The position numbers and the translations under genes were made by a program. From assembly GCF_900637845.1 (NCBI RefSeq), contig NZ_LR134439.1:186001-250000 (forward strand): a stretch of DNA of 64,000 nucleotides, given 5' to 3'. A model generated the notes under the pieces. It was not told where the DNA came from and did no database searches. It saw only the letters and a list, made by a program, of their open reading frames with translations. Numbering within the stretch: the stretch's first letter is position 1; each line of letters starts with the position of its first letter. The DNA comes from Erysipelothrix rhusiopathiae (GTDB lineage: Bacteria > Bacillota_I > Bacilli_A > Erysipelotrichales > Erysipelotrichaceae). This document shows positions 2,183 through 55,111 of this stretch, in pieces.

Positions 2183-2195
2183 AATATGGTATAAT
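2168..2195 (+). promoter_or_regulatory. putative promoter of the fluoride-riboswitch transcript
   Basis: Perfect -10 TATAAT at 2190-2195, with only a weak -35 candidate (GTTCAA, 2168-2173) inside the end of cutC. It places the start of transcription just before the aptamer. Confidence 0.55.
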
Positions 2196-2202
2196 TTACA
2201 AA

Positions 2203-2283
2203 ACGGTGATGGGGTTTGCCATAACTGCGACAGCTGATAACTCCTACATAAGACCACAGGGTCTTTTTGTAGGAGTTTTTTTT
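2203..2283 (+). ncRNA. fluoride riboswitch (crcB motif) with terminator expression platform
   Basis: The conserved aptamer segments are visible: GGTGATGGGGTTTGCC at 2205-2220, ATAACTGC after it, and GCTGATAACTCCTAC at 2233-2247. GGGGTT (2211-2216) can pair with AACTCC (2239-2244), the expected pseudoknot. The same AACTCCTAC (2239-2247) is also the 5' arm of a terminator whose 3' arm GTAGGAGTT (2269-2277) runs into eight T's. The two structures are mutually exclusive, so fluoride binding should prevent termination and switch on the downstream antiporter. The Shine-Dalgarno sequence GGAGG lies immediately after the T run. Confidence 0.92.
2239..2283 (+). terminator. riboswitch-controlled terminator
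   Basis: AACTCCTAC / GTAGGAGTT outer stem with an inner AAGACC / GGTCTT helix, followed by a T tract. It forms the OFF state of the fluoride riboswitch. Confidence 0.88.
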
Positions 2284-2292
2284 GGAGGTACT

Positions 2293-3444
2293 ATGATATA
2301 TACAATTTTACTAATCTTAATTCTAGGCCAAGTTTCAAAAAAAACGGCTAAAATGATGCATGTTCCAGCATTACTACTATTAATCATTCTTGGTATGACA
2401 ATAGGTCCCTTTGGCCTCAATTGGATTCATCCAAGTATTCAAATGTTGTCATCTGAAATTCGAGGTTTTGCTTTGATCATTATTTTACTTCGCGCTGGTT
2501 TTGGTCTCGATCGCCAAAATCTTGCTCAAGTAGGTCGACCTGCATTTTTGCTCAGTTTTGTTCCAGGTGTTTTTGAAGCGGGAACAGTTATGATTTTAAG
2601 TATGCATTTTTTGAATTTTAGTTTTATTCAGGGTGGGGTGTTAGGCTTCATTTTGGCGGCAGTTTCTCCAGCTGTAGTGGTCCCAATGATGGTTTATTTA
2701 GAAAAAAATAGAATTGGCACCCAAAAAAAGATTCCAACTTTAATCCTTGCCGGAGCATCGGTGGATGATATTGTGGCGATATCAATATTCTCTGTTTTTC
2801 TCGGTTTTTCGAGTACGGGATGGATATCTCCACTTCAAATTATGCTGAGATTGCCCATGATGATCGTCATAGGATTTATTTCCGGGGTAATGCTCGGTCG
2901 AGTTTTAAGTGCTTATGGGAAGAATTCAAAGATAACTGTGTTTTTGATGTTGATGCTTGCTTTTTGTCTGCAAAAATCAGAAAAGTATTTACCGATAGCC
3001 TCATTATTAGGCGTGATGGTGAGTGCTGCAACACTTCGAGAACGTAACCAATCATTAGCCGTTTTTCTTTCTAATGCGATGGATTCACTTTGGGTTGTCG
3101 CGGAGATTTTTCTTTTTGTCTTAGTTGGTGCGCAAGTGGATTTTAAAGCGGCACAATCTTCGGGTATAATCGGAGTTGTAATCATTGTTTGTGCTCTTTT
3201 GGTACGTATGGTGGGTGTTTTTGTATCACTAATCAACACAGATTTAACCCTTAAAGAACGAATTTTTGTAGCAATTTCATACATACCGAAAGCGACAGTT
3301 CAAGCGGCAATTGGTGGGACACCTTTAGCCTTGGGTTTACCAAATGGTGAAGTAATTCTTGCGATTTCAGTTCTTGCGATTTTAATTACAACACCACTGG
3401 GAGCAATCGGAATGAACTTGACGGCGAAGCCACTCTTAGAGTGA
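2293..3444 (+). CDS. cation/proton antiporter, fluoride-inducible
   Basis: Polytopic membrane protein of 383 residues resembling the CPA (sodium/proton exchanger) superfamily. It has about 11-12 hydrophobic segments and the family stretches LGMTIGPFGL, ASVDDIVAISIF and VGAQVDF. The start is the ATG at 2293, next to GGAGG at 2284-2288. Further in-frame starts upstream fall inside the riboswitch and would translate the aptamer. A sodium/proton antiporter class is known among genes controlled by crcB-motif RNAs, so this gene probably contributes to fluoride tolerance. Whether it moves fluoride itself or restores ion balance cannot be told from sequence. Confidence 0.85.
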   Translation: MIYTILLILILGQVSKKTAKMMHVPALLLLIILGMTIGPFGLNWIHPSIQMLSSEIRGFALIIILLRAGFGLDRQNLAQVGRPAFLLSFVPGVFEAGTVMILSMHFLNFSFIQGGVLGFILAAVSPAVVVPMMVYLEKNRIGTQKKIPTLILAGASVDDIVAISIFSVFLGFSSTGWISPLQIMLRLPMMIVIGFISGVMLGRVLSAYGKNSKITVFLMLMLAFCLQKSEKYLPIASLLGVMVSAATLRERNQSLAVFLSNAMDSLWVVAEIFLFVLVGAQVDFKAAQSSGIIGVVIIVCALLVRMVGVFVSLINTDLTLKERIFVAISYIPKATVQAAIGGTPLALGLPNGEVILAISVLAILITTPLGAIGMNLTAKPLLE

Positions 3445-3535
3445 ACTAAAAATAAGAATATCGTAAATTTTGTTATTTTATATTATCAATGGAATTTCGG
3501 TGTGTTATTTGATATAGTAATATAGGTGAATAATT

Positions 3536-3736
3536 ATGCATGATATCCAAAGAATTGTTTTATATTTCGTATGTTTTCTCGCAAGTGCTTATGCACTCAG
3601 AGGGATTGATTTTCATAAAGTGATGCGAAAAGGTAGTGAAACGCGTATTCAATTACTCTACATATTCTTATCTCTTGGATTAGGTTATGTTGTAGCGCAG
3701 TTTTTGATGGGATTATCATTCGCTTATTTCATGTAG
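3536..3736 (+). CDS. DUF1146 small membrane protein (YwzB-like)
   Basis: A 66-residue protein with two hydrophobic helices: IVLYFVCFLASAYAL near the N-terminus and YIFLSLGLGYVVAQF near the C-terminus. They are joined by a basic loop with DFHKVMRKG. The pattern matches the DUF1146 family, which sits near cell-wall or cytoskeleton genes in many Firmicutes. The function is not known. It ends 28 bases before mreB, whose strong GGAGG lies in that gap, so the two are probably co-transcribed. Confidence 0.75.
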   Translation: MHDIQRIVLYFVCFLASAYALRGIDFHKVMRKGSETRIQLLYIFLSLGLGYVVAQFLMGLSFAYFM

Positions 3737-3764
3737 AAAAGACGAGAGAATTGGAGGACAAAGA

Positions 3765-4763
3765 ATGTTTTCAAAAGCAGTCGGAATTGACTTAGGTACC
3801 GCAAATATTTTAATTTATGTAAAAGGCGAAGGCGTCGTTTTAGACGAACCTTCAGTAGTATCCATTGATGCTGAAACTAAAAAATGCCTTGCTGTAGGAC
3901 AATCAGCAAAAGATATGTTAGGGCGTACACCAGGACGTGTTCTAGCAATCCGTCCATTGAAGGATGGCGTTATTGCAGATTTTGAAGTAACAGAAATGAT
4001 GCTTCAATATTTTGTTAGAAAATTAAACCTTAAAGGTATGTTTTCACGACCAACAATCTTAATTTGCTGTCCATCAAATATTACATCTGTAGAACGTAAA
4101 GCGATCAGTGATGCAGCTTATCGTGCAGGTGCTAAACGTGTTTACATCGAAGAGGAACCAAAAGTTGCTGCTGTCGGTGCAAATCTAGATATTTCAAAAC
4201 CAGCAGGTTCAATGGTTTTAGATATAGGTGGAGGAACAACCGATGTTGCAATCCTTTCACTTGGTGAAATCGTAACAAGTACATCTCTAAAAGTTGCGGG
4301 TGACCGTTTAGATCATGATATTATCAAATATGTTAAAGATACATACAAACTTTTAATTGGGGATCGTACCGCTGAAGAAATCAAAACTCACATTGGGACT
4401 GCTCGTATCGACAGTGTCAAAGATATGGAACAAACTACGATTGCAGTTAGTGGTCGTGATTTAGTTACAGGTCTTCCAAATACAATTACATTAAAAGCAG
4501 AAGAAACAGCGAATGCTATGCACGAAAGTCTTCAAGACATTGTGCGCGCATGCCGTACTGTTCTTGAACAAACACCTCCTGAACTATCAGCAGATATTGT
4601 AGGACGAGGAATCGTACTTACAGGTGGTGGAGCATTATTACATGGCCTTGATGAATTAATTTCACATGAATTAAGTATTCCAGTTTATGTTGCTGAAAAC
4701 GCACTAACCTGTGTTGCTGAGGGAACAGGAATCATGTTAGAAAACTTAGACTTAGTTCGATAA
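3765..4763 (+). CDS. mreB: rod shape-determining protein MreB/Mbl
   Basis: Actin-like ATPase of 332 residues that forms membrane-associated filaments directing lateral wall synthesis. The nucleotide-binding elements are GIDLGTANIL (phosphate 1), LDIGGGTTDVAIL (phosphate 2) and GIVLTGGGALLHGL (adenosine motif). TTGGAGGAC precedes the ATG. No mreC or mreD follows, as is common for extra mreB/mbl copies, so this could be the mbl-type paralogue. It is co-directional with the DUF1146 gene and ends at a symmetrical terminator. Confidence 0.95.
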   Translation: MFSKAVGIDLGTANILIYVKGEGVVLDEPSVVSIDAETKKCLAVGQSAKDMLGRTPGRVLAIRPLKDGVIADFEVTEMMLQYFVRKLNLKGMFSRPTILICCPSNITSVERKAISDAAYRAGAKRVYIEEEPKVAAVGANLDISKPAGSMVLDIGGGTTDVAILSLGEIVTSTSLKVAGDRLDHDIIKYVKDTYKLLIGDRTAEEIKTHIGTARIDSVKDMEQTTIAVSGRDLVTGLPNTITLKAEETANAMHESLQDIVRACRTVLEQTPPELSADIVGRGIVLTGGGALLHGLDELISHELSIPVYVAENALTCVAEGTGIMLENLDLVR

Positions 4764-4780
4764 TTACAACTAAGTGTTTT

Positions 4781-4805
4781 AAAAAGAGCCAATGGCTCTT
4801 TTTAT
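4781..4805. terminator. terminator after mreB
   Basis: AAAAAGAGCC / GGCTCTTTTT with a three-base AAT loop, A-rich on one side and T-rich on the other. Confidence 0.88.
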
Positions 4806-11728: not shown

Positions 11729-11767
11729 AGAAAAAGATACTAACTGTGTGTTAGTATCTTTTTCTTT
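11727..11767. terminator. bidirectional terminator between lysS and the chr pair
   Basis: Perfect 17-bp stem: AAAGAAAAAGATACTAA pairs with TTAGTATCTTTTTCTTT across a seven-base loop. It overlaps the last bases of both convergent genes and can act in both directions. Confidence 0.9.
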
Positions 11768-12305
11768 ATAAGAGCCATAGTAAACCAAGAAATGCTGAAA
11801 GAATTAGAATTTGAGTTGTCTGAAGTTTGAATTTATAACTCATTGCAAATACGATGATGAAAGCAACTACAGTTAAAGCGCTGAAGCTACTTTCATTTAG
11901 AAGCAACATAGAAAAAATAGTTACTGTCGCAAGACTGATCAGTGTCGCGGAACTGATGCGTAAGGATTTCAAAATCAATTCCCAGAGGTCTTTGTGACTC
12001 GCCTTTTCATAGGACCCATACACACTAAGTGTCAAGCTAACACCAATAAGTACACAACCAAGTGTTGCGATCATTGCGCCCGGTATCCCGGCAATCTTGA
12101 GACCCACAAAAGTTGAGATGTTTACCGTCAACGGTCCAGGCGTCATTTGGGAAATGGTTATCATGTTGATAAAGTCTTGGGTCGTAATCCAACCATGAAT
12201 GTTGATAATTCTATTTTCGATGAGCGGAATGGTTGCGTAACCCCCACCAAGACTGAATAACCCAACATATAAAAACTCAAAGAATAATTTAATCAACTGT
12301 AACAT
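11766..12305 (-). CDS. chromate transporter family protein, second half-size subunit
   Basis: A 179-residue membrane protein of the CHR (chromate ion transporter) family in its short, one-domain form. It has about six hydrophobic segments, and the family signature reads FSLGGGYATIPLIE followed by SQMTPGPLTVN. The ATG at 12305 is preferred because GGGAG lies eight bases ahead of it. An in-frame upstream start would put 13 non-family residues in front. It overlaps the upstream chr gene by 17 bases. Short CHR proteins normally work as such pairs. The substrate may be chromate or another oxyanion. Confidence 0.85.
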   Translation of the reverse strand: MLQLIKLFFEFLYVGLFSLGGGYATIPLIENRIINIHGWITTQDFINMITISQMTPGPLTVNISTFVGLKIAGIPGAMIATLGCVLIGVSLTLSVYGSYEKASHKDLWELILKSLRISSATLISLATVTIFSMLLLNESSFSALTVVAFIIVFAMSYKFKLQTTQILILSAFLGLLWLL

Positions 12306-12852
12306 GATGCTGCTCCCAACGATTAAACATAAACACGACCACAAAATTAAAGATTAGAATAAAAACAATATGAATCTTAAAGGCTAGAGATAGCAACAAT
12401 CCAGTGAGATATATGATGACCGCAAATTTATGGTCTCTTTGGTATAAGTCTTTCACCATATCAAGGACCAATCGCACCATAATCACAGCAACTCCAACTT
12501 CTAATCCTTTAAATATTGCTTGTATTAGGGCTTGTCCCATAAAGAAATCATAAAAATAAGTAATGACAGAGATTATAAATAAGGGTGGTAAGATGGTCCC
12601 GATAAATGAAGCGAATCCTCCAGCTTTACCATTGATTTTATATCCGACTCCTGTTGCGAGATTTACGGATATGGCACCGGGTGCAGATTGAGCAATCGCA
12701 GCAAGATCTTGCAATGTTTCCTCGGTGATTAACTGCTTCTCCTCAACATACTTTGTGCGTAAAATTGGGATGGTAATATACCCTCCGCCAAACGATACAG
12801 CAGATAAAAAGAAGGACGTATAGAATAGTTCTAAATTTGATATTTGTTTCAT
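12289..12852 (-). CDS. chromate transporter family protein, first half-size subunit
   Basis: A 187-residue CHR-family membrane protein with the signature VSFGGGYITIPILR and AQSAPGAISVNLATGVGY. It is paired with the next gene, from which it differs clearly in sequence. The two halves together equal one full-length ChrA. GCGGAGG precedes the ATG. It is divergent from a LysR regulator 93 bases away, the usual arrangement for a regulator of its neighbour. Confidence 0.85.
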   Translation of the reverse strand: MKQISNLELFYTSFFLSAVSFGGGYITIPILRTKYVEEKQLITEETLQDLAAIAQSAPGAISVNLATGVGYKINGKAGGFASFIGTILPPLFIISVITYFYDFFMGQALIQAIFKGLEVGVAVIMVRLVLDMVKDLYQRDHKFAVIIYLTGLLLSLAFKIHIVFILIFNFVVVFMFNRWEQHHVTVD

Positions 12853-18731: not shown

Positions 18732-20102
18732 ATGCGTAAATTGCCTTACAGTCAAGACGCTGAGATGGCTCTTTTAGGAACGCTATTGGTGTTCCCAGAG
18801 TCAGTTGCAGTTGTTGAAGAATATGATATGCAAGTCGATGACTTTTATAATACCGAGCACCAAAAAATATTTTCTCATATGTTAGAAATTATTGAACGTG
18901 GTCGTGTTTTAGATGCAACGACTTTAATAACCCGATTAAAAGATCAACACGAAATTGATAGTGTGGGTGGTGTGGAATACTTGTTTGCACTTACAGAAAA
19001 CAGTGCAACACCAGCAAGTGTGAAACATTATATTGAAGTTGTTCAAGAAAAAGCTCAAATGCGCCGACTCATTGATGTTGGGCAGTCTATTGCTGAAAAG
19101 GGTTTTGACTCTACTACTGAACTTACAGCACTGCTTGATGAGGCAGAACAGAGAATTTTAGAAGTAACACGAGTTCGTCGAACAACTGAAATGCAACGCA
19201 GTCGTGAGGTCGTAAATGAAGTAATGGAGAATTTAAACCGAATTCGTGATAACCACGATCGCATTACTGGTTTAAAGACCAATTACAGTCATTTAGATAA
19301 TGTCACAAACGGTTTGCAACGTGGCGATTTAATTATCTTAGCGGCGCGTCCATCTGTAGGTAAGACGGCTTTTGCCTTAAACCTTGCATTGAATGCAGCA
19401 CGTCACAATAAAGATGAAAAAGCAGGAATGGCGATCTTCTCCCTTGAAATGCCTGCAACACATTTGATTTCACGTATGTTAAGTGCGCAATCTTCTGTTA
19501 AGAGTGAGTATTTACGAACGGGTAATCTAAACGATGAACAATTAAACAACGTCTATGCAGGCGCCAATGTTTTATCGAAACTCAATATCTTTATTGATGA
19601 TAGTTCAACAATTACAGTTCCTGAAATTTTTTCGAAATGCCGAAAACTAAAATCCGAAGGTAATTTAGATATGATTGTGATTGACTATATTCAGTTGATT
19701 TCAGGACGTGGGAAAACAGAATCACGTCAACAAGAAGTTTCGGAAATCTCACGTGGACTCAAACAGTTGGCCCGTGAAATGGATTGCCCGGTTATTGCGC
19801 TCTCGCAATTATCACGTTTAGTGGAACGTCGAGACAGTAAAATTCCTCAATTGAGTGATTTACGTGAATCTGGTTCGATTGAGCAAGATGCGGATATTGT
19901 AATGTTCTTGTACCGTGAAGATTATTATAAAGACCGCGAAGGTGAAGAGGATGATGGTCCTCAAATGCCGAAACCAGAACAACAAGAAGTATTACTAAAA
20001 ATGGCGAAACACCGTAATGGTGCATTGGCAGACATTACACTCATGTTCAATGCTTCCATTAGTAAGTTCTATGGTGTTGCCGGAGACGGAGGTAGAATGT
20101 AA
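18732..20102 (+). CDS. dnaB: replicative DNA helicase DnaB
   Basis: Hexameric 5'-3' replicative helicase (called DnaC in Bacillus), 456 residues. The N-terminal domain begins LPYSQDAEMALLGTLL. A linker leads to the RecA-like motor with Walker A ARPSVGKTAFAL, the Walker B region MIVIDYIQLISG, and the ALSQLSR and DLRESGSIEQDADIV elements. GAGGAGGA precedes the ATG. One base separates its stop from the next start. Confidence 0.97.
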   Translation: MRKLPYSQDAEMALLGTLLVFPESVAVVEEYDMQVDDFYNTEHQKIFSHMLEIIERGRVLDATTLITRLKDQHEIDSVGGVEYLFALTENSATPASVKHYIEVVQEKAQMRRLIDVGQSIAEKGFDSTTELTALLDEAEQRILEVTRVRRTTEMQRSREVVNEVMENLNRIRDNHDRITGLKTNYSHLDNVTNGLQRGDLIILAARPSVGKTAFALNLALNAARHNKDEKAGMAIFSLEMPATHLISRMLSAQSSVKSEYLRTGNLNDEQLNNVYAGANVLSKLNIFIDDSSTITVPEIFSKCRKLKSEGNLDMIVIDYIQLISGRGKTESRQQEVSEISRGLKQLAREMDCPVIALSQLSRLVERRDSKIPQLSDLRESGSIEQDADIVMFLYREDYYKDREGEEDDGPQMPKPEQQEVLLKMAKHRNGALADITLMFNASISKFYGVAGDGGRM

Positions 20103-20103
20103 T

Positions 20104-21612
20104 ATGAAAAAACATAAAAACCTCATTATGATATCTGTCGTATTTCTTTTTGCGATTGGGTTAGGGTACCTTTATAAGTCACCAACTTCAGCATCAGAAA
20201 TTAAAACAGCGTATGAAGCAATCGATTCATCATCTGCTATATTTCCACAAGAAGTTGTAACTGTAAATGATAAACCTGTAGTGATTACAAAGCTTTATCG
20301 CGAACAAAAACTAGTAGGGGTCTTGAAAGATTCGACACGTCTACAGAAGATGTTTGATGAAGTGTATGAAAATGAATATAAAGAAGAATTCCCAGATTCT
20401 AAGTTGGGATTCATTGATGACCTTATTCAAGTAGATGAAATGAGTTTCAATGTTTATGAAGATCGTGATAATGATATTTTTGACTATCTCTATAAAGAAA
20501 ACTTATTTGCGATTGAGGCAAATAAAGTCACATTCTCAAATGGAGCCATCATCTATGTAAAGAATTCTGAAGATTTTGATTCAGCGCGTGATAAATTCAT
20601 ACAAAACTTTACCAGTGAGAGCACATTTGATGCAATCAAAAATAATAAAAAAATTCCTGCAATTACGGACTATGGAACTAAGGATATTGATGTAAAAGTT
20701 AAAGAAACCGTTAAAGTAACGCGGGGACTTGCGACGAAGGATAAAATCCTAAAAGATGAAACAGAAATTCTGACATTCTTAAGTTATGGGTATAATCCAA
20801 AAGTTGAAACTTATAAAATTAAACCATTTGATACATTAGAAGGTATTGCATATCACAGTGGTATGAACGTTAATCAGATTCAATCCATTAATGCGGATAA
20901 AATCAAAGATGTGAATCAGGTGCTTGAAGTTGGATCAGAGCTTCGAGTAAGTAAGTTTGATTCACCATTCACAGTTACTGTAACCAAGCAACGTATGACG
21001 ACGGAACCAGTATATCCTGAAAAAACAGTATATCAATCCGATCCAGAACTTGCGGAAGGTAAAGAAGTTGTGGATGTCGTGGAACAAAATGGTGCTCGTG
21101 ATGTTATTTATGAAGATGTTTATGAGAATGGTGCATCCATCTCAACGAAAGAAATATCAAGTAAAGAAACTAAGAAACCAGTACGTGGTGTTATTCGATA
21201 TGGTACAAAAGTTGAACCTAAAGTTGGTAGTGGTGCATGGCGTTGGCCTTTAGATAATGCCTATGTTCTTTGTGGTTATGGTTGTTATCCAAATCACTCG
21301 GGTACAGACTTTTCAACACACGGTAGTGGCTATGGACCAATCTACGCAATTGACCGTGGTGTTGTCACAACAAACTCATACGATCCAGGAGGATGGGGTA
21401 ACTATATCGTTATTGACCATGGTAATGGATACAGATCCCTTTATGCCCATATGGCAAGTCCAGGTTATTTCCAAGCAGGACAAACTGTCGCAAAGGGTGA
21501 AAACATTGGTTATGTTGGTATGACGGGTCGAACAAGTTATCCACACGTCCATCTTGAAATTATTGTGGGTGGTGGAACACGTGTTGATGCATGTGGTGTT
21601 ATTGGCTGTTAG
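20104..21612 (+). CDS. LysM-G5-M23 endopeptidase, copy 1
   Basis: A 502-residue secreted or membrane-anchored cell-wall hydrolase candidate. An N-terminal hydrophobic anchor (about 8-24) is followed by a roughly 200-residue unassigned domain shared with the next gene. Then come a LysM at about 237-285 (PFDTLEGIAYHSGMN), a G5 domain at about 289-370 and an M23 peptidase domain. Zinc ligands H398 and D402 (HSGTD) and H481/H483 (HVHLE) are present, so it should be active. Paired cysteines occur at CGYGC and in the tail CGVIGC. The ATG at 20104 has GGAGG ahead, inside the end of dnaB. Confidence 0.88.
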   Translation: MKKHKNLIMISVVFLFAIGLGYLYKSPTSASEIKTAYEAIDSSSAIFPQEVVTVNDKPVVITKLYREQKLVGVLKDSTRLQKMFDEVYENEYKEEFPDSKLGFIDDLIQVDEMSFNVYEDRDNDIFDYLYKENLFAIEANKVTFSNGAIIYVKNSEDFDSARDKFIQNFTSESTFDAIKNNKKIPAITDYGTKDIDVKVKETVKVTRGLATKDKILKDETEILTFLSYGYNPKVETYKIKPFDTLEGIAYHSGMNVNQIQSINADKIKDVNQVLEVGSELRVSKFDSPFTVTVTKQRMTTEPVYPEKTVYQSDPELAEGKEVVDVVEQNGARDVIYEDVYENGASISTKEISSKETKKPVRGVIRYGTKVEPKVGSGAWRWPLDNAYVLCGYGCYPNHSGTDFSTHGSGYGPIYAIDRGVVTTNSYDPGGWGNYIVIDHGNGYRSLYAHMASPGYFQAGQTVAKGENIGYVGMTGRTSYPHVHLEIIVGGGTRVDACGVIGC

Positions 21613-21632
21613 TTTTTATCAAATCGAAGTAT

Positions 21633-21654
21633 AAACGAGATTACGGTCTCGTTT
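21633..21654. terminator. hairpin between the two LysM-G5-M23 genes
   Basis: Perfect stem AAACGAGA / TCTCGTTT with a six-base loop but no clean T tract. It may be a weak terminator or a processing and stability element between the paralogues. Confidence 0.45.
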
Positions 21655-21679
21655 GTGCTTTCCAAAAGGAGTTGGTCTA

Positions 21680-23215
21680 ATGAAGCAACATAAAGAACTG
21701 AAATTAATCCTGATAACTTTTATAGTCTCAGTACTTATTACGTATGCAATCGAAACAGTGAGTGCGAATACGAGTGTTGTGGATTTATACAAATTAACCG
21801 ACACATCTACATCAATCTTTCCACAAGAGTCTGAAGGAAAGTCTGATAAACCCATTGAAGTCACAAAACTTTATCGTGACGAAAAACTAGTGGGCATTAT
21901 CAGCGACGGTTCGAAATTAAATAAGATGTTTGATAAGGTTTACGAAGAAGAATATAAAGCTGAATTCCCAGATTCAAAGCTAGGTTTTATCGATGACTTA
22001 ATTCTCGTTAAAGAATTGAGCTTTAATCACTATGAAGATCGTGATGATGAAATATTTCAATATCTCTATGATGAAAAACTCTTTGCGATTGAAGTAAATC
22101 AAGTTACATTTTCTAATGGTGCGATCATTTATGTTAAGAATATCGATGACTTCAACAAAGCACGTGATACATTTATTCGGAACTTTACAGATGACAAAAC
22201 ATTTGATGCGATGAAAAACAATCGAAAAATTGAAAGCATCAAAGATTATGGGACACATGATGTTAATGTGGAAGTAGAAGAAACAGTTCAAATTAGCAAA
22301 GGATTGACATCCAAAGAAAATATTCTTATGAATGAAAGTGATGTTTTAACCTTTCTAAGTTATGGATATAATCCAAAAGTTGAAATTTATGAAGTCCAAC
22401 CGTATGACACAATCGCAGGGATTGCTTGGCATAAAGGTATGGATGCAAATCAAATAAAATATATAAATAGTGATATAATTAAAGATGTAAACCAGGTGCT
22501 TGAGGTTGGATCGAAACTTCGAGTCAGTAAGTTTAATTCTCCTTTTACCGTTAAAATCACTCGAGAACGAATGACCTCAGAAGTTGTTTATCCCGAGTCA
22601 ACAATCTACGAATCTGACCCAGAATTATCTGAAGGGAAGGAAGTTGTGGATGTTGTGGAACAAAATGGTAAGCGAGATGTGGTTTATGAAGATGTTATTG
22701 TGAATGGTGCTCCAAAGTCTTCGGAGGAAATTCGAACACAAGTAACGAAAGAGCCGATTCGTGGAAAAGTTCGTTATGGTACGAAGGTTGAACCACGGAT
22801 TGGGTCGGGTAACTATCGTTGGCCGTTAGATAACGCGAATATTTCATGTGTCTATGGAAATTCATGTTACTACAACCATAATGGAACTGATTTTGTTCTC
22901 AATGGTGGTGGTTTTGGTCCAATATATGCAGTTGACCGAGGTGTTGTATCGGAAACTGTAAGTGGTTGTTTTGAAGGAAATTATGGATGTGGAAGTGGTT
23001 GGGGTAATCATATTGTGATTGATCATGGTAATGGTTATACAACGCTTTATGCACATATGGCTACAGGTCCTTACTTCAATGTTGGTGATCTTGTAAAACG
23101 TGGTGATAATATTGGATATATGGGTATGACAGGTACAACTTATGGTCCTCATGTTCATTTAGAGTTCCGCTATCACGGCGTGCGGGTAGACCCATGCACC
23201 GTAATGGGATGTTAG
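21680..23215 (+). CDS. LysM-G5-M23 endopeptidase, copy 2
   Basis: A 511-residue paralogue of the preceding gene with the same order: N-terminal hydrophobic segment, shared unassigned domain, LysM (PYDTIAGIAWHKGMD), G5 and M23. Zinc ligands are H400 and D404 (HNGTD) and H491/H493 (HVHLE). Compared with copy 1 it has an extra cysteine-bearing insert (SGCFEGNYGCGSGWG) in the peptidase domain. Its tail ends CTVMGC. AAAAGGAG supports the ATG at 21680 rather than an in-frame upstream ATG. It arose by tandem duplication. In Bacillus this position, between dnaB and walJ, holds walRKHI. Confidence 0.88.
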   Translation: MKQHKELKLILITFIVSVLITYAIETVSANTSVVDLYKLTDTSTSIFPQESEGKSDKPIEVTKLYRDEKLVGIISDGSKLNKMFDKVYEEEYKAEFPDSKLGFIDDLILVKELSFNHYEDRDDEIFQYLYDEKLFAIEVNQVTFSNGAIIYVKNIDDFNKARDTFIRNFTDDKTFDAMKNNRKIESIKDYGTHDVNVEVEETVQISKGLTSKENILMNESDVLTFLSYGYNPKVEIYEVQPYDTIAGIAWHKGMDANQIKYINSDIIKDVNQVLEVGSKLRVSKFNSPFTVKITRERMTSEVVYPESTIYESDPELSEGKEVVDVVEQNGKRDVVYEDVIVNGAPKSSEEIRTQVTKEPIRGKVRYGTKVEPRIGSGNYRWPLDNANISCVYGNSCYYNHNGTDFVLNGGGFGPIYAVDRGVVSETVSGCFEGNYGCGSGWGNHIVIDHGNGYTTLYAHMATGPYFNVGDLVKRGDNIGYMGMTGTTYGPHVHLEFRYHGVRVDPCTVMGC

Positions 23216-37390: not shown

Positions 37391-37455
37391 GTTTTATTCT
37401 TGTCAGTAAAACCTCATAAGCGTATGATAATGATGAAAAGTTGGGAGTTGTCGAT

Positions 37456-39012
37456 TTGAAAAGAAAAGAAGAGATTTTAAGTTATTTTGATAAAACACGT
37501 CTGGCATTTATTGGAAAAGGCATCATCGTAGGTGTTTTTTCGGGACTGATTGTGAGTCTGTTTCGCTATTTGATCGAAGAATTATTGGGTTATGTGAAAC
37601 TGGCTTACGCACTGTTACGTATTAATCCACAGTGGATTTTTCTCTGGGTATTCGCATCAATTGTGCTTGCAATTGGAATTGGTTTGATTATTAAAAAAGA
37701 CCCCATGATTAAAGGGAGCGGTATTCCACAAATTGAAGGACAGATGTTAGGAGTCATGCATATGAATTGGCTCTCGATTATTTTAAGAAAAGGTATTGCC
37801 GGGATCTTATCGATTGGTTCAGGGCTCTTTTTAGGACGAGAAGGACCTTCGATTCAGTTGGGGGCTGCAGTAGGACAAGGTGTTAATCAAGGCTTTAAGG
37901 GAAACACAATGTCTGAAAAAGTTTTAGTTTCAAGTGGTGCGGGTGCGGGTCTTGCGGCTGCGTTCAATGCTCCAGTGGCGGGGCTTCTCTTTGTTTTGGA
38001 AGAGGTTCATCATAATTTTTCGCCGCTTGTACTTTTAACAACCCTGGCAGCAACGACGACTGCGAATTTCATTTCGCTATACTTCTTTGGACTCAGTCCA
38101 ATTTTATCTTTTGGTCATCTACAAACGTTTGACTTGAAGCATTATGGATTTATAATTGTATTGGGTCTGATTTTAGGAGTTACTGGATTTATTTACCAAA
38201 AAACAGTGCTTTGGATACCTACTGTTTACAGTAAAATTAAAAAAGTTCCAGCACATTTTTATGGTGTGATTCCTTTTATTCTCGTTATTCCAATTGGATT
38301 CTTTTATCCACACTTAATTGGTGGTGGTAGTGATATTATTCATATTCTTGTGGAAAATCCATTTGGACTTTCCGTACTTATTTCAATTTTTGTGCTTAGA
38401 TATATTTTCTCAATGGTTTCGTATGGATCGGGTCTTCCTGGAGGAATCTTTCTACCCATCCTTTCACTCGGTGCACTTTTGGGAGCGATTTACGGTTCTT
38501 TTTTGATTTCTCAGTTTGGCTTAGATCCCAAATTTTTGAAATCATTTATTGTGATTGCGATGGCGGGTTATTTCACTGCGATTGGGAAAGCCCCTCTCAC
38601 TGCAATCGTACTGATTACAGAAATGGTTGGTAATTTTGACCAACTAATGCCGATTGCGGTGGTATCTTTGGTTGCTTATGTTGTTTCTGATTTATGTGGT
38701 GGAGAACCTGTATATGAGGCAATGTTAGAGCGGCTTGCAGGGGAACGTGCACCCAATATCACCGGTGAAAAAGAAATCATTGAGATTTGTGTTCATGTAG
38801 AAAGTGCACTTGACGGGTGCATGGTGCGAGATGTTTATTGGCCAAAGTCCTGTTTATTAGCAGGACTTGGACGTGGAGATCACGAATTGATTCCACATGG
38901 AGATACAATAATTCTAGCAGGAGATACGTTAAAAATTTTAACGGACATAAGTTCAAGTGTAGAAGTTCGTAATCAACTTTTAGACCAAGTGTCCACAAAA
39001 AAACCAGTTTAG
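37456..39012 (+). CDS. ClC-family chloride channel/antiporter with TrkA-C domain
   Basis: A 518-residue ClC protein with many membrane helices and a C-terminal RCK/TrkA-C-like domain (about 440-505). The selectivity motifs are intact: GSGIPQ, GREGPSIQLG with the gating glutamate, and SYGSGLPGGIFLP. The GREGP motif argues for a chloride/proton exchanger and not the fluoride-specific CLC-F type. TTG at 37456 is preferred over an in-frame TTG at 37441 because GGGAG lies between them at correct spacing. The last codons form one arm of the terminator. Confidence 0.92.
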   Translation: MKRKEEILSYFDKTRLAFIGKGIIVGVFSGLIVSLFRYLIEELLGYVKLAYALLRINPQWIFLWVFASIVLAIGIGLIIKKDPMIKGSGIPQIEGQMLGVMHMNWLSIILRKGIAGILSIGSGLFLGREGPSIQLGAAVGQGVNQGFKGNTMSEKVLVSSGAGAGLAAAFNAPVAGLLFVLEEVHHNFSPLVLLTTLAATTTANFISLYFFGLSPILSFGHLQTFDLKHYGFIIVLGLILGVTGFIYQKTVLWIPTVYSKIKKVPAHFYGVIPFILVIPIGFFYPHLIGGGSDIIHILVENPFGLSVLISIFVLRYIFSMVSYGSGLPGGIFLPILSLGALLGAIYGSFLISQFGLDPKFLKSFIVIAMAGYFTAIGKAPLTAIVLITEMVGNFDQLMPIAVVSLVAYVVSDLCGGEPVYEAMLERLAGERAPNITGEKEIIEICVHVESALDGCMVRDVYWPKSCLLAGLGRGDHELIPHGDTIILAGDTLKILTDISSSVEVRNQLLDQVSTKKPV

Positions 39013-51317: not shown

Positions 51318-52215
51318 AGTCTGGCGTCATATCAAAGATGGTATTACAGGTGTTACTCGACACTTCGCACTATCACTATCAAGTATTTCATCAGTTACAG
51401 TGACACTGTTACTAATGTCTATATTTTTATTTTTGAGTGTAAATATTAGTACAATCACAAAATCAATGGAGCAAAGTGTTCAAATTCATGCTCAGATTTC
51501 AAATGATTTTGAAGAAAAGTCACAGATTAATGAAATTCAAAAACAAATAGAACAATTACCTGAAGTCTTAGATGTTAAGTTCTCTTCAAAAGAAAATGAA
51601 CTTGATGCATTTATCAGAGCCAATGATTCAGAAGATGCAGAAAGCCTTTACGGTGGTTACCGTGGCGAAAACAATCCAATGTTAAATGCCTTTTTGATCA
51701 ATGCGAAATCAGGTGATGAAATTAAAGATTTATCAAATAAAATTGCGAAAATCGAAGGTGTATACAAAACAAGTTACGGTGGAAGTGGTACAACTGATTT
51801 CCTCGGTATGCTTGAACAAGTTCGAAATGTAGGATTTATTATCGTAGTCACACTTGCAGTGATTGCTGTATTTTTAATTTCTAATACGATTCGTGTATCA
51901 ATTCATTCACGTCGTCGTGAAATTAGTATTATGCGAACAGTGGGTGCAACCAATTGGTACATCCGTTGGCCGTTTATCATCGAGGGGATGGTAATTGGAT
52001 TATTGGGAGCAATAATTCCAATTGTTATATCGATATTTGGATACCAATACTTATATCAAGCAACAGGCGGTATTTTAATATCGCAAATGTTTAAGTTAGT
52101 TGCTGTTTATCCATTATCACTACAAATCTCAGGGATTCTCGCTTTAATTGGAATCGTTGTAGGAGCATTGGGAAGTCTCTTCTCAGTGGGTAAATTCTTA
52201 AGGTGGTCACGATGA
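51310..52215 (+). CDS. ftsX: cell division protein FtsX
   Basis: A 301-residue ABC-type permease with one N-terminal TM helix (about 22-46), a large extracellular loop that contacts the wall hydrolase (residues about 50-165), and three C-terminal TM helices. The SIHSRRREISIMRTVGAT cytoplasmic loop is diagnostic. TGCGGGAGG precedes the ATG. Its stop overlaps the start of the first coiled-coil peptidase by four bases, directly linking FtsX to its presumed effector. Confidence 0.95.
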   Translation: MGRVWRHIKDGITGVTRHFALSLSSISSVTVTLLLMSIFLFLSVNISTITKSMEQSVQIHAQISNDFEEKSQINEIQKQIEQLPEVLDVKFSSKENELDAFIRANDSEDAESLYGGYRGENNPMLNAFLINAKSGDEIKDLSNKIAKIEGVYKTSYGGSGTTDFLGMLEQVRNVGFIIVVTLAVIAVFLISNTIRVSIHSRRREISIMRTVGATNWYIRWPFIIEGMVIGLLGAIIPIVISIFGYQYLYQATGGILISQMFKLVAVYPLSLQISGILALIGIVVGALGSLFSVGKFLRWSR

Positions 52216-53516
52216 AAAAATTTTTCAGAAATGTTATAATCATATTAGTAGTTGTATTGATGCTTGCTGGCGTATTGGCACCCGTTTTTGTTGCGGTTCC
52301 AATTTATGCTGAAGATATCGAATCTCTCAACAATAATATTGCACAAAGAGAAAAAGAACTTAAAGAACAACAATCAAAACAAGCTAATATAAAAGAACAA
52401 CTTTCTGAAGAAGTCGCAAAGTTAGATGATTATCGCCAACAAATTAAAAATCTTGAAGCTGAAATTGAATCTATGAAGACTGCAATTGCAACTTCTGAGG
52501 AAGAAATTAAACGTCTTCAAGCAAGTATTGAAGAAAGAGCAAAAAAAATTAAGGAAACGGAAGAAAAGGTTAAGGGATATATGGTCAATGCCCAATCCTC
52601 TACCCGTGTTAATGGATATTTCGAATTTGTAATGGGAGCTGCAGACTTTGCCGAGATGGTTCGTCGTCTTGAAGGTATGGGAGCAATCAAACGTTATAAT
52701 GAAGATTTAATTCGTGAAATGAATGAAATAAAAGCTGAGTTAGAAGCGGATAAAGCAAAACAAGAAGAAGAAAAACAAGCAATTGTACTTCGTAAAGAAG
52801 CTTCAGAACTTCAAAAAGAAGAAGCGAAACTTCTTGAAGAGAGAGTTCGTGCTGTTATTTCTGAACTTCACCAAAAAGAAAAAGAAGCTCAGGAACAAAT
52901 CGCAAGCATCAATGATAAGAATAAAGCGGATGAAGAAAAGATTAAACAAATGCAAATTCCATCTACTCCTGGAACAGGCGGTAATGGATTTACATTACCA
53001 CTTCCTTCAGGCTCATTTGATGTAACGGCTGATGTTTGGCATTATCCTGCCGAATATGGTGGAAGTGCTCATGCTGGAGTCGATTTAGGTGTTAATCCAG
53101 GTACATCAGTATTTGCAGTTGGTAACGGACTTATTGTTTCAACCAATTCAGGCTGTTATCCAGGCAACTGGAGTTGTGGTGGTGGATATGGTAACTACAT
53201 TTCCTATATCGTAAATGTAGGGGGACATAATTACGGAATTCTTGTGGCCCATCTATCAAGCGTTTCCGTATCAAGGAATCAAGTGGTTTCTGCTGGAAGT
53301 CTAATTGGGTATTCTGGAAACACGGGAGCTTCAACTGGACCTCATCTTCATGTTGAGACAATTGATATGGGACCCGGAACGGTTTTAGATGCTTGGAATC
53401 GTTGGAATGGTGACCCTCAATTTGGAACAGGACCAGCATCTTATGGTGGTCGACGTTGTGATCAAGGTTATGGTGTACCATGCCGACTTTATCCACGTCA
53501 AACATTAGGAATTTAA
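52212..53516 (+). CDS. EnvC/PcsB-like coiled-coil M23 peptidase, copy 1
   Basis: A 434-residue secreted wall hydrolase. A signal peptide (about 1-33) is followed by a long coiled coil at about 35-245 (repeated Lys/Glu heptads with GYFEFVMGAADFAEMVRRL), a short Gly-rich linker and an M23 domain. Zinc ligands H287 and D291 (HAGVD) and H378/H380 (HLHVE) are present, so unlike E. coli EnvC it should be active. The tail has RRCDQGYGVPCRL. The ATG at 52212 overlaps the ftsX stop (ATGA). It is most probably activated by FtsEX through the coiled coil. Confidence 0.9.
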   Translation: MKKFFRNVIIILVVVLMLAGVLAPVFVAVPIYAEDIESLNNNIAQREKELKEQQSKQANIKEQLSEEVAKLDDYRQQIKNLEAEIESMKTAIATSEEEIKRLQASIEERAKKIKETEEKVKGYMVNAQSSTRVNGYFEFVMGAADFAEMVRRLEGMGAIKRYNEDLIREMNEIKAELEADKAKQEEEKQAIVLRKEASELQKEEAKLLEERVRAVISELHQKEKEAQEQIASINDKNKADEEKIKQMQIPSTPGTGGNGFTLPLPSGSFDVTADVWHYPAEYGGSAHAGVDLGVNPGTSVFAVGNGLIVSTNSGCYPGNWSCGGGYGNYISYIVNVGGHNYGILVAHLSSVSVSRNQVVSAGSLIGYSGNTGASTGPHLHVETIDMGPGTVLDAWNRWNGDPQFGTGPASYGGRRCDQGYGVPCRLYPRQTLGI

Positions 53517-53525
53517 TTATAAAAT

Positions 53526-53553
53526 AAGTACAAATATACGTTTGTACTTTCTT
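53526..53553 (+). terminator. terminator between the two coiled-coil peptidase genes
   Basis: AAGTACAAA / TTTGTACTT with a six-base loop. The downstream T tract is interrupted (TCTTTG). Confidence 0.7.
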
Positions 53554-53620
53554 TGCCTAGGATCCTACTCGTCTATGATTTGTTCATAGTTCTGTACTAT
53601 TACGAAATAGGAGTGATTGT

Positions 53621-55111
53621 ATGAAAAAAATAATCAAAAATGGACTGTGTATATTTCTTGTCTTGTTTGTACTTGGTGGAACGTTAACACCTGCTATCAG
53701 TACAACGGTGTTTGCTGTGTCATCAGAGACAACTAAAGAACAAGAAGAACGACGCGCACAAATTGAAGAAAACAAGAAAAAATTAAGTGCGCTTGAAGGG
53801 TCTCAAAAAGATATTAAGGCAAACTTAACTGAGGAAATGAAAAATCTCAGTGGGTATAAAGAACAAATTGCTAGTCTAGATGCGAAAATCAAAGAGATTG
53901 AAGGAGAAATCCGTGTTTCAGAGGCACAAATCGTGCAACTCCAAAAATCTATTGATGATCGACAAGCAAAAATTGAGGAGACTGACGTTAAGGTTAAGTC
54001 CTATATGCTTAATGCGCAATCCGCAACGCGTGTTAATGGTTACTTCGAATTTATGATGACTGGCGAGGATTTTTCGCAAATCGTTCGAAGATTTGAGGTG
54101 CTAAGTTCAATCAAACGTTACAACGAAGAATTGGTACGATCAATATACAAGATAAAGCTTGAACTTGAGGCAGATAAAAAACTTCAAGAAGTTGAGCGTG
54201 AAGAAATTGAACTTCATAAAGAAGATATTGAATTACAAAAAGAAACCGCAAAAATTTATGAGAAACATGTTGAAGAAATTGTAAAAGAACTTCAAAAACA
54301 AGAAGCAGAGTTACAAGATGAACTTGATGAAATAAAATATGTTAATGCGGGTCATGAAAGTCAAATTAAAGCATTAGCTGAACAACTCGCAAATGAACTT
54401 GTTCAAGAACAAAACAATAACAATTCAGGTTCAGAAGGCTCAGATGGTGGAGAGTCATCAGGGGAATCTACAGGAAACGGTTCTTCTGGTGGTGAATCGA
54501 GTGAAGGTGGATCTACAGGTGGAGGTTCTTCTAGTGGCGGATCTTCCGGTGGAGGTTCTACTGGCGGTGGTTCAACGAGTGGATTTTCACTTCCTTTAGA
54601 TCCTGGAGTTTATCGTGTTGGAAATAGCGTGTGGGCTTATGATTGGGGTTCACCTCATATGGGTGTAGACTTAGAGGTCTATTACGGTAACAATGCGCGA
54701 TCTGTAGGAACCGGAATGGTTGTTGCTACGAATTCAGGCTGCTCTGAAGGTAATTGGGCCTGTGGCGGAGGTTATGGAAACTATATTTCTTATTTGGTCC
54801 ATGTTAACGGTCAAAATTATGGAATTTTATTTGCCCATCTAAGTGCTGTTTATGTTTCCGAAGGACAAATAGTTCATCCGGGGACTGTGCTTGGTCTTAC
54901 TGGGAATACAGGTGCATCAACAGGACCTCACTTACATGTGGAAACAATTAATATGGGTGGTGGATCCATTTATGATGCCTGGAGTTTATGGTCTCAAAAC
55001 AGTACCATGAACTTTGGAACGGGTTCCGCAAGTAGTGGTGGTCGAAGATGTGATCAGGGCTATGGTGTTCCATGTCGCTTGCATCCGCAATCTACACTCG
55101 GACTTTACTAA
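53621..55111 (+). CDS. EnvC/PcsB-like coiled-coil M23 peptidase, copy 2
   Basis: A 496-residue paralogue of copy 1 with the same order: signal peptide (about 1-32), coiled coil (about 36-260), linker, M23 domain. The linker is a long Gly/Ser-rich stretch (about residues 265-318). Zinc ligands are H346 and D350 (HMGVD) and H437/H439 (HLHVE). The same tail RRCDQGYGVPCRL is conserved. ATAGGAGTG precedes the ATG. It follows a hairpin, so it may be expressed partly on its own. The pair suggests tandem duplication with different reach into the wall. Confidence 0.9.
   Translation: MKKIIKNGLCIFLVLFVLGGTLTPAISTTVFAVSSETTKEQEERRAQIEENKKKLSALEGSQKDIKANLTEEMKNLSGYKEQIASLDAKIKEIEGEIRVSEAQIVQLQKSIDDRQAKIEETDVKVKSYMLNAQSATRVNGYFEFMMTGEDFSQIVRRFEVLSSIKRYNEELVRSIYKIKLELEADKKLQEVEREEIELHKEDIELQKETAKIYEKHVEEIVKELQKQEAELQDELDEIKYVNAGHESQIKALAEQLANELVQEQNNNNSGSEGSDGGESSGESTGNGSSGGESSEGGSTGGGSSSGGSSGGGSTGGGSTSGFSLPLDPGVYRVGNSVWAYDWGSPHMGVDLEVYYGNNARSVGTGMVVATNSGCSEGNWACGGGYGNYISYLVHVNGQNYGILFAHLSAVYVSEGQIVHPGTVLGLTGNTGASTGPHLHVETINMGGGSIYDAWSLWSQNSTMNFGTGSASSGGRRCDQGYGVPCRLHPQSTLGLY
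54412..54580 (+). repeat. Gly/Ser-rich linker coding repeats
   Basis: Short imperfect repeats of GGTGGATCT/GGAGGTTCT-type units that encode GGGS-like peptide. They belong to the linker of copy 2 and could vary in length between strains. Confidence 0.8.

Follow-up and report, generated by a model that had tools for sequence, protein, structure and literature searches.

A fluoride riboswitch in front of an NHA2-like cation/proton antiporter where Fluc and CLC-F are missing from the genome, and its possible part in fluoride defense

The window considered here, meaning the whole stretch of 64,000 nucleotides that was analyzed, carries just downstream of its cutC gene a short leader and a transporter gene, and a CLC gene lies further along. 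The features on which the argument turns are these:

2187 to 2195, plus strand: extended −10 promoter element (TGG-TATAAT), directly 3' of the cutC gene, read from the sequence
2196 to 2253, plus strand: fluoride riboswitch aptamer (crcB motif), Rfam RF01734
2211 to 2216, plus strand: 5' pseudoknot strand GGGGTT, from the sequence and from covarying pairing in relatives
2239 to 2244, plus strand: 3' pseudoknot strand AACTCC, which doubles as the 5' arm of the terminator, from sequence and fold
2239 to 2283, plus strand: intrinsic terminator, from the fold, its overlap with the aptamer conserved in relatives
2284 to 2288, plus strand: Shine-Dalgarno sequence GGAGG, immediately 3' of the terminator, with the ATG at 2293
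2293 to 3444, plus strand: cation/proton antiporter, NHA2/SLC9B-like CPA2, 383 amino acids, from PF00999, PDB matches, and a structural model
37441 to 39012, plus strand: CLC gene of chloride type without a riboswitch, motifs GSGIP, GREGPS, and GGIFLP

Elsewhere in the window, two tandem duplicated gene pairs (20017-23215 and 52203-55111) look like peptidoglycan peptidases, with HxGxD and HxH motifs toward their C-terminal ends, and a two-gene pair on the minus strand (11766-12852), with the motifs GGGYATIP and GGGYITIP, resembles a chromate-type transporter split in two.

An earlier note on this DNA had read from its letters a crcB-motif aptamer, two pseudoknot strands, and an overlapping terminator, all of which are borne out. 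The covariance search that it had proposed matched the full RF01734 model at 42.5 bits against a gathering score of 34 (E = 2e-8; 2196 to 2253, plus strand); this is the sole Rfam match above gathering score within the window and the only fluoride riboswitch genome-wide. The pseudoknot strands lie where they had been placed and form 6 bp, including one G-U pair. The terminator reuses the 3' strand: its outer stem pairs 2239 to 2248 (AACTCCTACA) with 2268 to 2277 (TGTAGGAGTT), encloses an inner hairpin (2250-2255/2260-2265), and is followed into a run of eight T residues at 2276 to 2283, and the leader has a fold energy of −33.1 kcal/mol (z = −4.1 against shuffles). A pattern scan listed no terminator at the leader because its loop limit is 8; the thermodynamic fold shows one. 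The extended −10 ends immediately 5' of the aptamer; no good −35 was found upstream of it, and a consensus promoter scan did not have it among its listings.

The overlap is retained in related genomes, where 65% of antiporter leaders, against 0.5% of shuffles, have a terminator arm that can pair with the 3' strand of the aptamer over 7 nt or more. In these genomes 93% of pseudoknot positions pair, whereas redistributing the 3' strands among the species gives a mean of 86% and at most 89%. Such an overlap between pseudoknot and terminator is the experimentally proven mechanism by which transcriptional fluoride riboswitches turn ON (PMC11077080), and by analogy we infer that 2196 to 2283 is a transcriptional fluoride ON-switch. 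Without fluoride, 2239 to 2244 would be drawn into the terminator and transcription would halt near 2283; with Mg-bound fluoride, the 2211-2216/2239-2244 pseudoknot would persist, the terminator would fail, and the antiporter would be produced.

The regulated gene, earlier called a CPA-type antiporter ending at 3444, does end there and matches Pfam PF00999 (E = 1.7e-43, 149 bits, cut-off 26.2). It is the only PF00999 protein of the genome, in a count of this antiporter family alone. Its closest solved structures are human and bison NHA2 (SLC9B2; PDB 7b4l and 7p1i), with E = 7.6e-37 when the protein was searched by itself; for a profile built on 57 homologues the values were 1e-69 for NHA2, 2e-18 for NhaP1, and 3e-6 for NapA. 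An AlphaFold2 model built from 57 sequences (pLDDT 89.8) has the NhaA-type fold and likewise had NHA2 as its best Foldseek match (E = 1.1e-16). VIA-align superpositions were strong both for NhaP (Z 46.0, rmsd 2.3, 374 residues aligned) and for NHA2 (Z 43.0, rmsd 2.8, 381 aligned), so the fold by itself cannot separate the two, and it is because of the ion-site residues that we assign the antiporter as NHA2-like rather than NhaP. Residues E95, D158, D159, R305, K333, and T335 align with E214, D277, D278, R431, K459, and T461 of NHA2, the site that explains its electroneutral Na+/H+ exchange (PMC8850199). All six are invariant across 81 sequences within the order, and in the 57 homologues five are invariant and D159 is at least 90% conserved.

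The extra N-terminal helix of mammalian NHA2 (14 TM) is absent from both the alignment, which begins at NHA2 residue 113-114, and the model, and for this reason we speak of an NHA2-like protein and not of an NHA2 orthologue. Comparison of the family sequences revealed no family-specific, anion-type change at the ion site. With NHA2 as the nearest solved relative and the named ion-site residues conserved, cation/proton exchange is the safest biochemistry to predict for this antiporter.

The recognized bacterial fluoride exporters are missing from this genome. A search for PF02537 (Fluc/CrcB), which the earlier note had asked for beyond the window, gave no match across this single-contig genome of 1.77 Mb (99.98% complete), while the same search was positive in 10 of 14 controls. 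The CLC at 37441 to 39012 is the only one of the genome, and examination for the published CLC-F signatures (GNNLI/GMGLI, GREGT/V, and GEVTP; PMC11139923) found none of them. Since it has GSGIP and GREGP and lacks GEVTP, it is chloride-type, as had been claimed, and GSGIP, GREGPS, and the missing GEVTP rule it out as the fluoride exporter.

Across the order, 245 genomes were searched for the riboswitch, crcB, PF00999, CLC, and the antiporter family, and every riboswitch locus was retrieved. Among 97 riboswitches in 96 genomes, 86 lie directly 5' of a gene from this one antiporter family (34 to 100% identity to the window antiporter), 4 precede CLC proteins with CLC-F motifs, 1 is cut at a contig end, and the remainder precede other genes. 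Members of the family score at least 200 bits, one short fragment excepted, and the next proteins score 106 or less; so bounded, the family is present in 97 of the 245 genomes, and 87 of these 97 also have the riboswitch. The arrangement of riboswitch and NHA2-like antiporter is an order-wide rule. The suggestion that antiporters are a less common target must be withdrawn, because Na+/H+ antiporters are reported to rank second, after exporters, among the gene classes under fluoride riboswitches (PMC11139923), and in this order they are the commonest by far.

No antiporter carrier has crcB (0 of 97), compared with 29 of the 148 other genomes (Fisher p = 1.9e-7, a calculation that ignores shared ancestry, which inflates the significance of the exclusion). 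Matches to crcB in two genomes (G110 and G221) fell below the cut-off within unrelated long frames and were left out of the count. Three genera hold both antiporter carriers and crcB genomes, with zero co-occurrences in small numbers (genus g8 has 33 genomes listed, 18 of them carriers and 5 with crcB), and chance alone would produce non-overlap on this scale with moderate probability. CLC-F occurs in 8 of the 97 carriers, approximately the background rate, and with crcB in none this leaves 89 carriers with neither Fluc nor a recognized CLC-F. CLC proteins with GREGAA have no GEVTP and are taken as non-CLC-F by motif alone; if some of them carry fluoride, the exporter-less carriers are fewer. 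The earlier proposal that the antiporter takes the place of Fluc is thus supported statistically, crcB being absent from every carrier of the order; a like proposal for CLC-F is weaker.

Individual loci depart from the common arrangement. In the crcB genomes G142 (L048 and L085), G117 (L047), and G152 (L093), the fluoride riboswitch precedes genes other than the antiporter, read from their translations as a NifU-like/GGGtGRT pair, a Rex-like and MutS-like pair, and an ABC transporter. At L084 (G090, minus strand, about 2345 to 4800), riboswitch, NHA2-like antiporter, and a CLC-F with the motifs GMTLV, GREGVA, and GEVTP follow one another consecutively. The riboswitch-linked antiporter gene at L034 (G053:C1:55932-57116) has in-frame stops and may be decaying or mis-assembled.

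The linkage also extends across phyla. A scan of GTDB genomes returned several hundred antiporter homologues, and the best 80, which were examined, span Bacillota, Desulfobacterota, Bacteroidota, Fusobacteria, Nitrospirae, Brachyspira, and Lentisphaeria; in 50 of these best 80 a riboswitch lies within about 220 nt upstream, and the antiporter gene mostly has no close downstream partner. Only 4 of these 50 genomes have crcB, a figure without a matched control because crcB is rare in the wider-phylum sample anyway (7 of 295 genomes, mostly crcB-poor relatives). A CLC is present in 27 of the 50, and GEVTP was seen in none of the readable sequences; many of these genomes are drafts of unstated completeness, so the absence of exporters is weaker evidence here. 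Antiporters at L145, L151, L162, L184, L191, L205, and L209 (desulfobacterial and related) are extended at the C-terminus by a further domain of about 100 amino acids. Two divergent fluoride riboswitches are found at L184 (2454-2524, minus strand, and 2715-2786, plus strand) and two tandem ones at L207 (1223-1290 and 2851-2918, plus strand).

Fluoride enters cells as HF, and for freely permeant HF the ratio of internal to external F− follows 10^(pHin−pHout). The linkage to the riboswitch and the lack of crcB suggest that these bacteria may rely mainly on the antiporter for defense against fluoride. That a fluoride ON-switch here controls an NHA2-like exchanger serving as fluoride defense, both Fluc and CLC-F being absent, is a reading we hold tentatively, at a little short of an even chance. 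Resistance would then most likely come from F− leaving as HF during cation-for-proton exchange. The exchanger would move Na+ or K+ outward and H+ inward, probably electroneutrally as in NHA2, and by our own derivation from weak-acid behavior this proton import would shrink the pH difference that traps F−; if a gap of 1.5 units were closed, fluoride in the cytoplasm would fall about 30-fold. Because each F− that exits as HF would remove the proton brought in, the cycle would sum to export of cation and fluoride. In keeping with such a mechanism, yeast acclimated to fluoride is reported to tolerate a lower pH inside the cell and to become resistant without exporting the ion (PMC11139923). Against it, acidification is costly, and F− cannot be brought as far below equilibrium as with Fluc.

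The strongest competing account is that the fluoride-induced antiporter is an accessory to pH and ion homeostasis, repairing only the disturbance of pH and sodium that HF entry brings about, while fluoride itself either stays in the cell or leaves through an as yet unknown exporter. Riboswitch-linked Na+/H+ antiporters have been interpreted in this way in print (PMC11139923), and a helper role fits the co-occurrence of CLC-F with the antiporter in 8 of the 97 carriers, once in a shared operon (G090), as well as the CLC/NhaP operon that lies behind a fluoride riboswitch in Clostridioides difficile (PMC11477304); these same observations count against a main defense. A helper should, however, accompany exporters, and here crcB is missing from all 97 carriers, most carriers have no recognized exporter, and the antiporter is usually the sole gene behind the riboswitch. 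The accessory account thus explains the co-occurrence with CLC-F and leaves the missing Fluc unexplained, and we consider it unlikely, though not negligible.

It is less probable again that proteins of this NHA branch bind F−, alone or together with a cation, and export it, in which case the riboswitch-controlled NHA2-like proteins would be a third bacterial family of fluoride exporters beside Fluc and CLC-F, moving F− directly and replacing both in most of the order's carriers and in anaerobes from several phyla. Mutual exclusion with crcB and the riboswitch link across phyla point this way, and there is a precedent in CLC-F, where riboswitch-controlled "chloride" transporters turned out to be fluoride exporters (PMC7266159). 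Drosophila Nha1 has also been proposed as an H+-Cl− cotransporter, but this is a single report, and human NHA1 lacks a residue change favoring Cl− (PMC9174904); moreover, the NHA2 cation-site residues are conserved throughout the bacterial family, with no family-specific change toward an anion site. We regard as still more doubtful the explanation by genome reduction and shared ancestry, under which Fluc disappeared from the order for reasons unconnected with the antiporter and the riboswitch-antiporter unit was simply retained from an ancestor, for although crcB is rare in the wider phylum and the unit is common to related species, crcB is found in 29 genomes of the same order, beside carriers in three genera and never together with the antiporter, and in three crcB genomes (G142, G117, and G152) the riboswitch precedes other genes.

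Parts of this picture have been seen before. In 2010 the crcB motif was associated with genes for K+ and Cl− transport (PMC2864571), and the class of riboswitch-linked Na+/H+ antiporters is already published, being credited by a later source to Baker et al. 2012 (PMC11139923). The near-exclusive use of the antiporter and the absence of Fluc from its carriers appear to be unreported; in the open-licence literature we found no paper that tests riboswitch-linked antiporters in fluoride, names them as NHA2-like, or reports carriers without Fluc. Bacterial fluoride resistance has so far been explained almost wholly by Fluc and CLC-F, and here a large set of genomes keeps the fluoride sensor, has no recognized exporter, and uses the sensor to drive one transporter family. 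That family would reveal either pH-based fluoride resistance, which we favor, or a new fluoride exporter, and a function for these antiporters would be a function for the second-ranked class of genes under fluoride riboswitches.

Four known systems help to place the locus. Its leader is like the transcriptional fluoride riboswitches of RF01734, for example that of Bacillus cereus crcB, in its aptamer, 6-bp pseudoknot, and overlapping terminator, but the B. cereus riboswitch drives crcB whereas this one drives an antiporter, with a predicted response to fluoride. CLC-F and Fluc (CrcB) are, like the antiporter, riboswitch-controlled, and they confer fluoride resistance, a role that it possibly shares, although their folds and sequences are unrelated to it and both are missing from this genome. 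NHA2/SLC9B2 (7b4l and 7p1i) has about 31% identity to the antiporter and shares its fold and named ion-site residues, including the E/R pair and PKATVQAA; the antiporter differs in being bacterial, in its 383 amino acids without the N-terminal 113 residues and their extra helix, and in that its exchange activity is predicted. The nearest parallel in regulation is the class of riboswitch-linked Na+/H+ antiporters that includes CD0657 of C. difficile, with the same regulatory RNA and the same broad transporter class; here, in contrast, the antiporter is the sole riboswitch gene, the genome has neither Fluc nor CLC-F, and the family is assigned as NHA2-like.
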